Assembly: GCA_033344895.1 (NCBI GenBank)
Contig: JAWPMN010000001.1
Location: forward strand, 2,612,001 to 2,676,000
Direction of reading: 5' to 3'
Length of the DNA: 64,000 nt
From: Alphaproteobacteria bacterium
GTDB lineage: Bacteria > Pseudomonadota > Alphaproteobacteria > UBA8366 > Aestuariispiraceae
In this document: positions 38,252-45,574 of the stretch, in pieces
Layout: each line of letters opens with the position of its first letter
Numbering within the stretch: the first letter of the stretch is position 1
Translations under genes and position numbers: made by a program
The notes under the pieces: model-generated
The model's database searches: none
Told to the model about the DNA's origin: nothing
What the model saw: the letters and a program-made list of their open reading frames with translations, nothing else

Positions 38252-39171
38252 GAGATTCGAGCTGCGGGCAGGGGACGGGGCAGGGGACGGGGCAGGGGAC
38301 GAGGCAGGGCGCATAGTGCCTCAGCCATGTCGCGCAACAGATCGCGGCGAGGGTCGTTCCTGCGGAAACAAATCCAGTAGCGGGACGGGCAATCGACCGG
38401 CTTCCCGACCGCGACCAACCGGCCCGCGGCGACGGCTGCGTCGGTCAGCAAGGGACGGCCCAATGCGGTACCGTGCCCGGCCAGGGCGGCCTGGATCGCC
38501 ATATCGGTACGGGTCACGGACATACGGGGGTTTTGGCTCAGGGACAGACCGCTGGCATCCTCGTACCGGTCCCAGCCGGATTGCGTGCCGTCCTGATCGC
38601 AGCTTCGATCCTGGATCAGAACCGCATCCGGATCCGCCAGTTCGAAGTCGTGTGTCGCGGCCATCGGCGTCAGTGTCACGGATGACAGTTCGATCGTCTC
38701 CAGTCCCTCATAGGGACCGATGCCGAACCGGATTGCCAGATCCGACGCGTTCAGGCCCAGATCGGACAGTCTTTCGTCGGCGATGATTTCCAGTCCCATC
38801 CCGTGCGGCGTGACGGCGGGCAATGCCGCCATGCCCCAAAGATTGGCCAGTGTCGCAGACATGGATACGGTCAGAACCTCCCGTGCGTCCCTTGCCGCCA
38901 GTTCGCGCAACGCCGCATCGACGCCCCGCAGGGTGCCGTTGCTCAAGGCGACAAGGCTGCGCCCGGCGGCGGTCGGGACGGCAACCCGTCCGTCGCGATC
39001 GAACAGTGCCGTTCCCAGCAGCGTCTCCAACTGCCGAATGCGATGCGATACCGCCGATTGATCAACCCCCAAGGCCGCGCCGGCGGCCGTGAAACTGCCG
39101 GTGCGGGCCAGGGCGGTCAGGAAGGGCATGGCCTGCAGGACGCGGGCGGCAATGTGATGGTCCGCTTTCAT
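38248..39171 (-). CDS. LysR-type transcriptional regulator
   Basis: A 307-residue regulator. The N-terminal winged helix is ALARTGSFTAAGAALGVDQSAVSHRIRQLE (read in parts), followed by the linker LFDRDGRVAVPTAAG. The C-terminal effector domain is complete until about residue 290. It then ends in an unusual PLPR tandem-repeat tail encoded by 12-bp repeats. It is divergent from phzF-like (93 nt between starts), which is its likely target. The downstream P-loop kinase is coupled by a 4-nt overlap. Confidence 0.9.
   Translation of the reverse strand: MKADHHIAARVLQAMPFLTALARTGSFTAAGAALGVDQSAVSHRIRQLETLLGTALFDRDGRVAVPTAAGRSLVALSNGTLRGVDAALRELAARDAREVLTVSMSATLANLWGMAALPAVTPHGMGLEIIADERLSDLGLNASDLAIRFGIGPYEGLETIELSSVTLTPMAATHDFELADPDAVLIQDRSCDQDGTQSGWDRYEDASGLSLSQNPRMSVTRTDMAIQAALAGHGTALGRPLLTDAAVAAGRLVAVGKPVDCPSRYWICFRRNDPRRDLLRDMAEALCALPRPLPRPLPRPLPAARIS
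38268..38309. repeat. 12-bp tandem microrepeat in the LysR 3' end
   Basis: Three 12-bp units (GCAGGGGACGGG, the third differing by one base) plus a partial fourth. The unit is four codons long, so copy-number change keeps frame and only lengthens a Pro-Leu-Pro-Arg tail of the LysR protein. The repeat also lies directly upstream of the kinase start codon. Confidence 0.85.
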
Positions 39172-40299: not shown

Positions 40300-40950
40300 A
40301 TGCCGAACGACATTGCCACCGACTACGAAATCCGGACCGAAGCCGAACTGAGGCACCTGATCGGCCATCCATCCGGACTCGCCGCGAAGAAATCGCTGAC
40401 GCGGCTGGACAGGTATTGCCGCGAGTTCATCGCCCTGTCGCCCTTTCTGTGTATCGGCACGATGAGTGGGGACGGGCGCGCCGATGTTTCACCGCGCGGC
40501 GACCCTGCCGGCTTCGTGCAGGTGCTGGACGACAACACGATTGCCATTCCGGACCGGCCCGGCAATCACCGGCTGGACACGATGTCGAACATCCTGGCCA
40601 ATCCGTCGGTCGGTCTGATCTTCATGATTCCGGGATTCGAGGATACGTTGCGGATCAACGGCCGCGCGACATTGACCCGCGATCCGGACATCCTGGAGCG
40701 CGCAACGATCAAGAACAAGCGGCCGGAAATCGCCATCCGCGTCGCCGTGGAGGAGGCCTTCCTGCACTGTGCCAAGGCGCTGAAACGCTCCCGCCTGTGG
40801 GAGGAGGATGCCAAGGTCGACCGATCGGTCATGCCCAGTCTCGCCCGGATCATTCTGAATCAGACCAGCGAGGACGGGCCCATCGACGAGGACACCGCGA
40901 AAAGCGCCGACGAACGGCTGGAAGCAAGCTACCGCAATCACCTTTATTGA
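40300..40950 (+). CDS. PNPOx-fold FMN-binding protein
   Basis: A 216-residue pyridoxamine-5'-phosphate-oxidase-fold protein of the MSMEG_1061-like group. The split-barrel core is visible: SPFLCIGTMSGDGRADVSPRGDPAGFV (in parts), IAIPDRPGNHRLDTMSNILANP and VGLIFMIPG, then RINGRATLTRD. It binds FMN or F420 and acts as a small-molecule reductase. A helical C-terminal extension of about 50 residues follows (MPSLARIILNQTSEDGP). The 106-bp repeat array begins 13 nt after its stop. Confidence 0.85.
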   Translation: MPNDIATDYEIRTEAELRHLIGHPSGLAAKKSLTRLDRYCREFIALSPFLCIGTMSGDGRADVSPRGDPAGFVQVLDDNTIAIPDRPGNHRLDTMSNILANPSVGLIFMIPGFEDTLRINGRATLTRDPDILERATIKNKRPEIAIRVAVEEAFLHCAKALKRSRLWEEDAKVDRSVMPSLARIILNQTSEDGPIDEDTAKSADERLEASYRNHLY

Positions 40951-40962
40951 GGGATAACCGCC

Positions 40963-41834
40963 GTGTTCCTGCGGAAGCAGGAACCTTCCGCGACCCGGCA
41001 CCGAGTGATGTCTGAGAAGGTTCCTGCTTCCGCAGGAGCACTGCTGTTGTGGCGGCGACCTTTCCGGCGTGTTCCTGCGAAAGCAGGAACCTTCCGGGAC
41101 CCGGCACAGAGCGGTGTCTGAGGAGGCTCCTGCTTTCGCAGGAGCACTGCTGTTGGGGTAGCGACCTTTCCGGTGTGTTCCTGCGAAGGCAGGAACCTTC
41201 CGAAACCAGGCACCGAGCGGTGTCTGAGGAGGCTCCTGCTTCCGCAGGAGCACTGCTGTTGTGGGGGCGACCTTTCCGGTGTGTTCCTGCGAAAGCAGGA
41301 ACCCTCCGAGACCCGGCACCGAGCGATGTTTGAGAAGGCTCCTGCTTTCGCAGGAGCACTGCTGTTGTGGCGGCGACCTTTCCGCCGTGTTCCTGCGAAA
41401 GCAGGAACCTTCCGAGACCCGGCACAGAGCGGTGTCTGAGGAGGCTCCTGCTTTCGCAGGAGCACTGCTGTTGGGGTAGCGACCTTTCCGGTGTGTTCCT
41501 GCGAAGGCAGGAACCTTCCGAAACCAGGCACCGAGCGGTGTCTGAGGAGGCTCCTGCTTCCGCAGGAGCACTGCTGTTGTGGGGGCGACCTTTCCGGTGT
41601 GTTCCTGCGAAAGCAGGAACCCTCCGAGACCCGGCACCGAGCGATGTTTGAGAAGGCTCCTGCTTTCGCAGGAGCACTGCTGTTGTGGCGGCGACCTTTC
41701 CGCCGTGTTCCTGCGAAAACAGGAACCTTCCGAGACCCGGCACAGAGCAGTGTCTGAGGAGGCTCCTGCTTTCGCAGGAGCACTGCTGTTGTGGCGGCGG
41801 CCTTTCCGGCGTGTTCCTGCGGAAGCAGGAACCT
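40963..41834. repeat. 106-bp tandem array of paired inverted hairpins (REPIN-like)
   Basis: Units start at 40963, 41069, 41175, 41281, 41387, 41493, 41599 and 41705, always 106 bp apart, with a 24-bp partial ninth at 41811. Each has hairpin A (GTTCCTGC-GAAA-GCAGGAAC) and, about 55 bp on, hairpin B (GCTCCTGC-TTTC-GCAGGAGC), the same motif inverted. So each strand's RNA would carry one GNRA-loop hairpin per unit. Units 2-4 (41069-41386) and 5-7 (41387-41704) are near-identical, giving a 318-bp higher-order repeat. The array fills the gap between two convergent genes (13 nt from one stop, 26 from the other). 106 is not divisible by 3, so long open frames here are an artefact. Confidence 0.97.
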
Positions 41835-41859
41835 GCCGCCGAAAGAGCACGGATAGCGG

Positions 41860-42567
41860 TTACTCCGCCGTTTTCTCCCGCGCCGCGAGGGCGGCAGTGA
41901 CGGCGTCGGTCGTGCCCTGGATATGGGTTTCCATCACCGAAGCGGCGCGGTCGATATCGCGGTCGATGGCGGCTTCGAACAGGTCCCGGTGTTCCTGGCT
42001 GATGTCGCGGGTCCGGACGGTCTGTACCCGGGACAGACGACGGTAGCGCTCGTGCTGGTCGAACACCTGGCGGCGCAATCGGAACAGCCAGGGCGAGTTG
42101 CAGGCCGAGACCAGGGCGACATGAAATGCCTTGTTGCGGCGTTCCCATTCCGGCAGGTCGTCTATCCCCTGATTGATGCGGCGTTCGATGCTTTCCAGCC
42201 GGTGGAAGGCGGTGATGACGTTGGTCTCCCAGGTCTCGTCGCCTTGTATGATTGAGGCGCGTAGGGCTTCGATTTCCAGCATCTTGCGGACCTGACCGAC
42301 ATCGCGGGCATCCTCGGCGGACATGGCGACCACTTCACAGCCGCGCTGCCCTTCCAGCCGCACCAGATGGTCGCTTGACAGCCGCGCCAGCGCCTCGCGG
42401 ATCGGTGCCGCACCCAGCCCGTAACGCTGCCGCAGCATCTCGATCTTCAATTTCAGTCCCGGGGCCAGATTCCCGGAAATGATGTCGTTCCGCAGCAGCC
42501 GATAGGCGCGTTCGGAATTCGTCCGCTCCGGCGATTCGGCACCGGCCTCGATCACATTGGTCGTCAT
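41860..42567 (-). CDS. GntR/FCD-type regulator of the TRAP-catabolic cluster
   Basis: A 235-residue regulator. The winged helix is SERAYRLLRNDIISGNLAPGLKL (in parts) with GLGAAPIREALARLSSDHLV. The FCD domain follows, with metal-type residues in RNKAFHVALVSAC and QEHRDLFEAAIDRD. I chose ATG 42567 on family length; ATG 42615 is an alternative and neither has a strong ribosome site. It is divergent from the TRAP genes, and an AT-rich perfect palindrome lies between them. It probably represses the cluster until an aromatic or hydroxyacid intermediate binds. Confidence 0.88.
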   Translation of the reverse strand: MTTNVIEAGAESPERTNSERAYRLLRNDIISGNLAPGLKLKIEMLRQRYGLGAAPIREALARLSSDHLVRLEGQRGCEVVAMSAEDARDVGQVRKMLEIEALRASIIQGDETWETNVITAFHRLESIERRINQGIDDLPEWERRNKAFHVALVSACNSPWLFRLRRQVFDQHERYRRLSRVQTVRTRDISQEHRDLFEAAIDRDIDRAASVMETHIQGTTDAVTAALAAREKTAE

Positions 42568-42648
42568 TTGGCCCAATAACCTCGCGTCCCCCAGACGTCT
42601 TCTGCCGCTCTTCATAGCAGGACGTCGTTAGGATATCGAGATTTTCCG

Positions 42649-43359: not shown

Positions 43360-44633
43360 TGGCAGTTGCGGGGTGGTTTCTGGCCTTCCTGGCCGCCGGT
43401 CTGCCCATCGCCCTGGTTCTGGCGGCGACGGCCCTGGTCTTCATCGTGGTCAGCGGCAATACGGTCCTGCTGCAATCCTATGCCCAGCAGCTTTACGGCG
43501 GGCTGGAGAATTACGGCTTGCTGGCCCTGCCGCTGTTCATCCTGCTGGGCGAGTTCATGAATTCCGGCGGGATCGGCCGCCGCCTGATGGCGCTGTCGCT
43601 GTCGCTGCTTGGGTCGGTCAAGGGCGGGCTGGCCTATGTGAACCTGCTCGCCAACATGATGATGGCGTCGATCCTGGGCTCCGCCGTCGCGCAGATCACC
43701 ATCATGTCGAAGATCGCGGTGCCGGAGATGGAGAAGGCGGGCTATCCGCGCGACCTTTCCGTGGCGATCACGGCGGCGGGCGGGCTGCTGGCGCCCATCG
43801 TGCCGCCCTCCATGCTGTTCATCATCTTCGGCGTCATTGCCCAGATGCCGATCGGCGATCTGTTCATTTCCGGCATCGTGCCCGGCGCGATCCTGTTCGC
43901 CAGTTTCCTGGCCGCCATCGCGCTGCTGGGCCGCATCTACGGCTTCCCATCGACGGGCAAAGTCACGGTAGCGCAGCGGGCGCGCGCCTTCCTGGATGCG
44001 CTGCCGGCGCTGGCCATACCGGCAACCATCATCGGTGCGATCCTGGGCGGGTTGGCAACGCCGACCGAAGCCGCGGCAATCGCGACGTTGGCGGCGATCC
44101 TGATCGGCCTGTTCGTCTATCGCGAGATGACCTGGCGGGACATCTTCCCGGCCTGCGTCAACGCCGCGCGCAGTTCCGCCGTCGTCCTGTTCCTGATCGC
44201 GGCGGCGCAGGTCTTCAGCTGGGTCATCACATTCGAGAATCTGCCCGCCCTGGTCGCCGCCTGGCTGCAGCAGGTCACGACCTCACCGATCCTGTTCCTG
44301 TTGATGCTGAACGTGATCCTGCTGCTGCTGGGCACGGTCACCGATCCGATCCCGGCGATCATCCTGACCGTGCCGGTGCTGCTGCCGGTCGCGACCGGGG
44401 TCTACGGCATCGACCCGTTCCAGTTCGGCGTCATCATCTGCCTGAACCTGACCCTGGGCTTGCTGACCCCGCCGGTCGGGACGGGCCTGTTCACCGCCGC
44501 CCTGATGGGGCGGGTCCGGGCGGAGCGGATCGCCCGGCTGCTGCTGCCCTTCTTCTTCGCCTCGGCCGGGGTTCTGGTCCTGCTGGCCCTGTTCCCGTCG
44601 CTGACCACCGGCTTGAAGGAGGCGCTGTCGTGA
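43359..44633 (+). CDS. dctM: TRAP transporter large permease (DctM type)
   Basis: A 424-residue protein with about 12 spans. Conserved pieces are LPLFILLGEFMNSGGIGRRL, AITAAGGLLAPIVPPSMLFIIFG (in parts) and LTLGLLTPPVGTGLF, typical of DctM/YgiK ion-coupled carriers. It is coupled to DctQ at its start and to the dehydrogenase gene at its end (4-nt overlap). Confidence 0.95.
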   Translation: MAVAGWFLAFLAAGLPIALVLAATALVFIVVSGNTVLLQSYAQQLYGGLENYGLLALPLFILLGEFMNSGGIGRRLMALSLSLLGSVKGGLAYVNLLANMMMASILGSAVAQITIMSKIAVPEMEKAGYPRDLSVAITAAGGLLAPIVPPSMLFIIFGVIAQMPIGDLFISGIVPGAILFASFLAAIALLGRIYGFPSTGKVTVAQRARAFLDALPALAIPATIIGAILGGLATPTEAAAIATLAAILIGLFVYREMTWRDIFPACVNAARSSAVVLFLIAAAQVFSWVITFENLPALVAAWLQQVTTSPILFLLMLNVILLLLGTVTDPIPAIILTVPVLLPVATGVYGIDPFQFGVIICLNLTLGLLTPPVGTGLFTAALMGRVRAERIARLLLPFFFASAGVLVLLALFPSLTTGLKEALS

Positions 44634-45574
44634 CCTTGTCCGGAAAGACCATCCTGATCCTGGGCGGCGGCACGATCGGCGCCGGTTGGGCGGCGTGCTT
44701 CGCGGCGGCGGGCGCGCGGACCCTGGTCTGCGATCCCGACCCGGCGGCAGCCAGCCGGCTGGCCGCGATTCAGGACAAGGCGCACCCGGTCCTGCAAGCG
44801 CTGGGCCTGCCGTCTGCGCAGGACTCCGCGCCCGAAATCATCCCCGGTCTCGCCGACCTGAACATCTCCGTCGATTTCGTCGTCGAGGCGCTGCCGGAAC
44901 GCATGGCGTTGAAGACCGCTGCCCTGGCCGCGCTGGAAGACGTCATTCCGGCGGATACGGTCATCGCCTCCAGTTCCTCCGGCCTGTCGGTCAGCGACAT
45001 GCAGACCGGCATGCGCCATCCCGACCGTCTGGTTATCGGCCACCCCTGCAATCCCCCCTACCTCATGCCGGTGGTCGAACTTGTCGGCGGCGCGGCGACG
45101 GCGCCCTGGGCGCTGGACCGCGCCGCCGCGATTTTTCAGGCGCTGGGCAAGCGGGTGCTGCGGCTGAACCGGGAATTGCCCGGCCATCTGGTCAACCGGC
45201 TGCAGGCGGCGCTGTGGCGCGAGGCGGTGCATCTGGCGGCGGAAGGCGTGGCGTCGGTCGGTGACATCGAGGCCGCGATCACCAAGGGGCTGGGGCCGCG
45301 CTGGGCCGTGGTCGGCCCGACGGAGATCTTTCACCTGGCCGGCGGGCCGGGCGGGATCGCCAAATTTTTCGACGATCTGGGGGACGAGGTGGAGCGCTGG
45401 TGGGAGTCGCTGGGCGATCCCCGCCTGGATTCCGCGACCCGCGCGATCCTGACCGAAGGCATGGCGGCATCGAAGCCGCCGGAAGATCTGGCCGCCCATC
45501 GCGACGCGATGGTCCCGCGCGTCATCGCGGCGGCGGACCCCGATGCGTATCCGTTGAAGTCAAAACCACAATAG
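44630..45574 (+). CDS. 3-hydroxyacyl-CoA-dehydrogenase-like NAD enzyme
   Basis: A 314-residue two-domain dehydrogenase. GTG start at 44630 with AAGGAGG. The Rossmann NAD site is LILGGGTIGAGWAACFAAAG, and the family motif GHPCNPPYLMPVVELVGG contains the catalytic His. This subgroup (lambda-crystallin/L-gulonate/carnitine dehydrogenase-like) oxidises free 3-hydroxyacids rather than only CoA esters. In this operon it may oxidise the imported hydroxyacid or a pathway intermediate. The cysteine in place of the usual Phe in GHPFNP is a mild oddity. Confidence 0.83.
   Translation: MTLSGKTILILGGGTIGAGWAACFAAAGARTLVCDPDPAAASRLAAIQDKAHPVLQALGLPSAQDSAPEIIPGLADLNISVDFVVEALPERMALKTAALAALEDVIPADTVIASSSSGLSVSDMQTGMRHPDRLVIGHPCNPPYLMPVVELVGGAATAPWALDRAAAIFQALGKRVLRLNRELPGHLVNRLQAALWREAVHLAAEGVASVGDIEAAITKGLGPRWAVVGPTEIFHLAGGPGGIAKFFDDLGDEVERWWESLGDPRLDSATRAILTEGMAASKPPEDLAAHRDAMVPRVIAAADPDAYPLKSKPQ

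Follow-up and report, generated by a model that had tools for sequence, protein, structure and literature searches.

What built a regularly phased array of hairpins between two convergent genes, and is it kept there for a function? The array lies in the 64-kb stretch of alphaproteobacterial DNA analysed here (the window), in a gap of 909 bp (40951-41859). The left neighbour is a gene for a PNPOx_N-domain protein (40300-40950, plus strand; Pfam PF01243, E 2e-18), whose named relatives are Hwanghaeella, Dongia and Rhodospirillum; the right neighbour, convergent with it, is a GntR/FCD regulator gene (41860-42615, minus strand; Pfam PF07729 and PF00392). First to last hairpin span 40963-41834, or 872 of the 909 bp, and the earlier note was right that nearly the whole gap is occupied. 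Only 12 bp separate the array from the PNPOx stop codon, and 25 bp separate it from the GntR/FCD gene.

Starting at 40963, the array consists of eight units of exactly 106 bp each plus one terminal hairpin. TRF reports a period of 106, 8.3 copies and 0% indels at 40958-41838; the other places that it reports in the window are five of 43-60 bp, making this the sole long tandem array reported. Each unit is composed of a 23-bp REP (hairpin A), 33 bp of inner spacer, a second 23-bp REP (hairpin B) and a 27-bp outer spacer; in other words, a 79-bp inverted REP pair, of that length in all eight units, with 27 bp of local DNA added. Hairpin A reads GTTCCTGC, a 4-nt loop and GCAGGAAC, hairpin B reads GCTCCTGC, a 4-nt loop and GCAGGAGC, and the A and B loops have opposite orientations within each unit. 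All 8 stem pairs are present in 15 of the 17 hairpins, the exceptions, with 7 of 8, being hairpin B in unit 1 and hairpin A in unit 8. A search of the window for the core TCCTGC-N4-GCAGGA gives 16 sites, every one inside the array, against 0 in 100 shuffles. Cut from 40963, the eight units match each other pairwise at 94-106 of 106 positions, while a ninth block matches them only through its first hairpin. TRF, the unit alignment and the full stems thus confirm the eight 106-bp units with paired, opposite 8-bp-stem hairpins that had been described from the sequence, although that description lacked a 318-bp three-unit repeat and the additional A hairpin with which the array closes on the right.

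These two features are seen when the units are followed along the plus strand. Unit 1 (40963-41068; A REP 40963-40985, B REP 41019-41041, then the 27-bp spacer) precedes two copies of the higher-order repeat, formed by units 2-4 (41069-41386) and units 5-7 (41387-41704). The copies differ at 1 of 318 bases (317/318 identical); units 3 and 6 are identical, as are 4 and 7, and the single difference lies between 2 and 5. Unit 8 (41705-41810) is followed by a terminal partial unit (41811-41834), a single A hairpin with no B partner. Within 41811-41859, GAGCACGGAT stands after this last hairpin and, by eye, is also found 3' of the B hairpin in some units of the sister genome described below; it may be what is left of the B half that the last REPIN has lost.

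The mean match between units is 102.8/106 at a lag of three, against 95.0-98.0 at other lags. This peak, together with two 318-bp copies one base apart, argues for stepwise growth, in which single units would have been added first and the three-unit duplication would be recent. Varying columns among the eight units number 2/28 in the core stem, 3/8 in the loop, 10/33 in the inner spacer and 6/27 in the outer spacer. The 27-bp outer spacer, searched with up to 3 mismatches, is present in the genome only within the array (a tolerance that takes in 6 of its 8 copies), which points to local duplication rather than repeated insertion. Two copies so nearly identical, in a count taken from the assembly, could also mean that the copy number is an assembly artefact. 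We consider this improbable, given the distinct variants in units 1, 2, 3, 4 and 8 and the array that a separate genome has at the same place.

Could the repeat instead encode protein? All three minus-strand frames are free of stops over the 872 bp, with overlapping ORFs of 279, 432 and 453 aa. However, a period of 106 is not divisible by 3, so the frame shifts between successive units, and all six frames have negative codon-usage scores (-0.53 to -0.72 bits per codon), against +0.49 for a likely gene outside the training set (about 44630-45574). The same REPs also lie between predicted genes at other loci, and a minus-strand coding repeat is almost certainly not the explanation. A CRISPR array was likewise rejected, since the spacers are copies of one sequence and not unique.

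The earlier note had proposed looking for the same hairpin elsewhere in the genome (4.64 Mb, one contig), and it is there: YTCCTGC-N4-GCAGGAR occurs at 65 exact sites, 16 in the array and 49 outside it, against 0 for the reversed control. We examined 40 loci, 20 from this genome and 20 from the genome of a sister species (G011). Lying outside these loci are two exact core sites of the window's genome (1042999 and 1400106), the sister sites 1704431, 1783553, 1813995, 1903034, 1921410 and 3254812, which are beyond the stretches taken, and degenerate copies. The 40 loci contain 58 inverted dimers (18 in the window's genome and 40 in the sister's, including its copy of the array locus), and 49 of the 58 are 79-80 bp long. 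Fifty pair one T-type with one C-type REP, three are C/C, none is T/T and five include an untyped REP, though dimers that stand in tandem are not independent cases in such a tally. REPs outside a dimer as defined make up 22/58 in the window's genome and 12/92 in the sister genome. The inverted REP pair in each unit, and dispersed copies that are often inverted dimers, uphold the proposed REPIN-like layout, with only partial conservation in the dispersed dimers between the REPs and their short tails. Tandem clusters of two or more copies are found at other sites of both genomes, eight units being the most seen.

The genomic context is typical of REPs: outside the window, 51 REP clusters divide into 27 with convergent neighbours, 22 with unidirectional and 2 with divergent ones. 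These gene calls are approximate, coming from a codon-usage caller trained on seven window genes, which in a trial on the window missed the likely gene at about 44630-45574. The context fits insertions tolerated past stop codons and a role at 3' ends alike, and does not decide between them.

The family is narrowly distributed. It is found in two of 43 genomes of the order (21 of the 43 being at least 90% complete and at most 5% contaminated) and in one of 385 genomes drawn from the class, namely the window's own, the sister genome being outside that draw. Exact matches to the canonical GTCATTCCCGC-type REP number 34 in the sister genome and one in the window's genome; two other genomes of the genus carry 14 and 9. 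The REPIN view had led the earlier note to expect a RAYT gene, but a search with Pfam Y1_Tnp (PF01797) gave no hit in the window's genome or in five other genomes of the genus, the sister included. The same search was positive in 5 of 14 known genomes used as a control, E. coli and Caulobacter among them, and a Y1_Tnp gene is present in 2 of 14 genomes of the family. The elements are therefore best called REPIN-like in layout and not RAYT-driven REPINs, and the missing transposase, which could have accounted for their initial spread, counts against the account favoured below. A search of the open-library literature, where most subscription papers fall outside coverage, gave nothing on this organism's repeats.

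Among known repeats, the closest comparison is with CGTC-1 REPs, described as common in Alphaproteobacteria and as having no known transposase (Di Nocera et al. 2013, PMC3733652). As that paper describes them, they share with the array family an 8-bp stem, a 4-nt loop, frequent inverted dimers, positions near stop codons of convergent or unidirectional genes, and the lack of a known dedicated transposase. They differ in several respects (PMC3733652). Most copies of the array family have no CGTC tag (or TGTC, CCTC) and carry GTG before the core stem, although a minority read GTATTCC or GCATTCC and one (G011 2060832) stands directly after CCGTC. The first and second stem pairs, A-T in CGTC-1, are mostly G-C and then T-A or C-G here, and the stem is TTCCTGC, compared to TTCCCGC in the canonical copies of the sister genome. 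Homodimers are said to predominate in CGTC-1 (PMC3733652), unlike the T-type/C-type heterodimers that predominate here. Grouped CGTC elements are described in the same source as rare outside Neisseria and Wolbachia. In PMC6006769, CGTC is named only inside a reference.

Tandem expansion of a REPIN had been put forward as exceptional, which does not hold. Tandem clusters that include flanking DNA are reported from P. fluorescens SBW25 and E. coli (PMC3116915, PMC8049555), and clusters recur in both sister genomes. The largest REPIN cluster reported for SBW25 has four REPINs and one REP, alongside tandem REP arrays of twelve (PMC3116915), and one E. coli line is reported to have lost five of six tandem REPINs (PMC3116915, PMC8049555). 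As in those accounts, our unit is a dispersed pair of inverted REPs that forms tandem clusters together with flanking DNA; unlike them, the window's genome has no RAYT gene that we found, eight units and a three-unit higher-order repeat. What is already known is thus the existence of tandem clusters of such repeats; this locus adds the largest case seen in this family, the three-unit repeat and a different array in the sister species, with an MFS gene. Neisserial NIME/dRS3 arrays, in which 20-bp hairpin repeats alternate with short intergenic spacers (PMC3898611), are similar in design, but their dRS3 pattern ATTCCC-N8-GGGAAT occurs 0 times in the window.

The sister species has the same gap with different contents. 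At the DNA level, the window's genome and G011 share 85% identity in the PNPOx and FCD genes; G011 and CP051228.1 have the same coordinates at the array locus, and their stated lengths differ by 100 bases. (CP051228.1 is titled Mesoflavibacter, of the Flavobacteriaceae, yet is counted in the genus of the window's genome, whose proteins have mostly alphaproteobacterial named relatives; the label looks wrong.) Read from the PNPOx side, the G011 gap (locus G011:573000-580500) holds three composite units and a partial REPIN, an MFS-type gene, and three more composite units before the FCD gene. Within each set of three, the REPINs are 278-298 bp apart. A composite unit is a REPIN joined to a canonical CGTC-type REPIN, whose exact pattern is present in 5 of the 6 and looks degenerate in the last. 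The array that adjoins the PNPOx gene ends in an A hairpin whose B partner is lost, as the window's array does.

Between the arrays of the two species, the consensus inner REPIN spacers are 85% identical, whereas identity to the inner spacers of 27 other 79-bp REPINs is at most 67% (median 55%). An identity like that of the flanking genes, and well above the values elsewhere, suggests one old insertion, and the REPIN in the G011 gap is apparently orthologous to that of the window's array. The 27-bp spacer was not found in the sister genome (up to 3 mismatches), and so amplification, or replacement, of the present 106-bp unit probably followed the species split. Whole REPINs match at 92% within the window's array, 94% within that of G011 and 89% between the two, with fixed differences at 1 of 79 positions; the claim of separate amplification therefore rests mainly on the differing spacers, and the array may instead be old and shared, and have been homogenised afterwards in each of the two lineages.

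The MFS-type gene, named from the annotation of its plasmid relatives, encodes 396 aa, faces the PNPOx gene and is absent from the window's gap. Among 13 other genomes of the family, searched at E 0.001, none has a relative of it above 28% identity, but a gene on a Paracoccus denitrificans plasmid, whose surroundings were covered as a gene table, matches 91% of the length of the MFS-type gene at 76.5% identity. A plasmid relative and no close relative in the family favour gain in G011 over loss in the window's genome, so the gene was probably acquired, although its G+C content (66%) is ordinary for the locus and lends no support to a recent transfer. By eye, degenerate CGTC-like REPs stand at both ends of the insert, from which a clean insertion site is not derivable. 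The suggestion that this is a recombination-prone locus gains support from the different array and the MFS gene in the same gap, and the comparison suggests that the gap is prone to rearrangement.

Long flanks allow ten of the 20 G011 loci to be aligned with REPIN loci examined in the window's genome. Since two genomes carry the family, this comparison is between species, not within one. The number of tandem units differs at four of the ten sites, the array included: the window's genome and G011 have 2 and 1 units at 167018, 1 and 3 at 3136582, and about 1.5 and 2.5 at 1917504. The number of whole units is the same at the other six, although at one of these, 259268, G011 shows an additional recognisable REP. 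Tandem REPIN pairs also occupy two more sites of G011, within 480 and 504 bp, where the window's genome has 36 and 60 bp; gain and loss are unpolarised here, and the sequence was inspected for the first site only. Tandem change is thus frequent in the family, and the eight-unit array, although the largest example seen, is not an isolated one. We also observed about 6 kb of the sister genome (G011:3211928-3218000) with REPIN clusters, for which the syntenic place in the window's genome has 51 bp.

These filled and empty sites, and the dispersal of REPINs in general, would suit an array assembled by repeated REPIN insertion through an unknown transposase, without tandem duplication. Yet the exact 106-bp phasing, the spacer confined to the array and the three-unit repeat require duplication of flanking DNA, and we regard this origin as very improbable. 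Most probably, the array is a clade-specific, CGTC-1-like REPIN that was locally amplified in each lineage, giving a recombination-prone spacer. By orthology, one REPIN would have lain between the two convergent genes before the species split, and a tandem duplication would then have taken in neighbouring DNA. Repeated unequal exchange between near-identical units could have enlarged the array, first one unit at a time and most recently by three units together. The site would have grown in the sister species too, but with a different unit, and its array now brackets the probably acquired MFS gene. On this account the array is presumably a structured, recombination-prone intergenic spacer with a drifting copy number, tolerated perhaps on account of its position immediately beyond two stop codons.

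Alternatively, the array may be under selection, either as a two-way transcription barrier or as a stabiliser of mRNA 3' ends for both convergent genes, which we think possible but rather unlikely. Its closeness to the ends of both genes would fit, and a transcript would be very structured: the 909-nt RNA exceeds 20 shuffles (z -14.6). Yet shuffling destroys inverted repeats, so that any inverted-repeat array is expected to give a strong z. Folded singly, three REPIN strands each form one long hairpin (DNA z -6.0 to -7.0), but B of one unit also folds with A of the next (z -5.4), and pairing is thus possible between as well as within units. The core stems vary less than the inner spacers, as selection might require, but this may only reflect the origin of the repeat, as stems are conserved in the dispersed copies too. 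No intrinsic terminator was predicted in the array, where shuffles average 1.2 T-tract terminators, and no sigma-70 promoter was predicted there either. Neither unit number nor length is conserved, and the corresponding gap of the sister genome has the MFS gene inside it. The array may affect mRNA 3' ends, and termination of transcripts from both sides or binding of gyrase or a nucleoid protein, as the earlier note proposed, would be further candidate roles. Matches to Rfam were all below gathering scores and mostly to microRNA models, and we read them as chance hits on hairpins.

The two sister genomes offer a private, countable family of repeats similar to the CGTC type, sites that are filled in one and empty in the other, and differences in unit number at shared sites, making the spread and growth of such repeats testable by comparing strains. 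More speculatively, and with considerable doubt, REPIN arrays without a known transposase could be recombination sites in this lineage, at which units turn over and foreign genes enter or leave between the two halves of an array; the sister MFS gene would be such a case. If that case were general, REPIN arrays would be places of gene gain, as has been suggested for Neisseria, where arrays flank pilC1 in one strain but not in another and dRS3 is described as a possible site of integration or deletion (PMC3898611).

Two other repeats were noted along the way. A short stretch is 84% identical between the two genomes (L123 4112-4207 and G000:C1:259118-259215) although the places do not correspond, and two further places match it more weakly; this appears to be a different dispersed repeat. 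Within the window, a 12-bp repeat (38266-38309, 3.7 copies) at the 3' end of a minus-strand gene, LysR-type by eye, encodes the gene's C-terminal Pro-Leu-Pro-Arg run.
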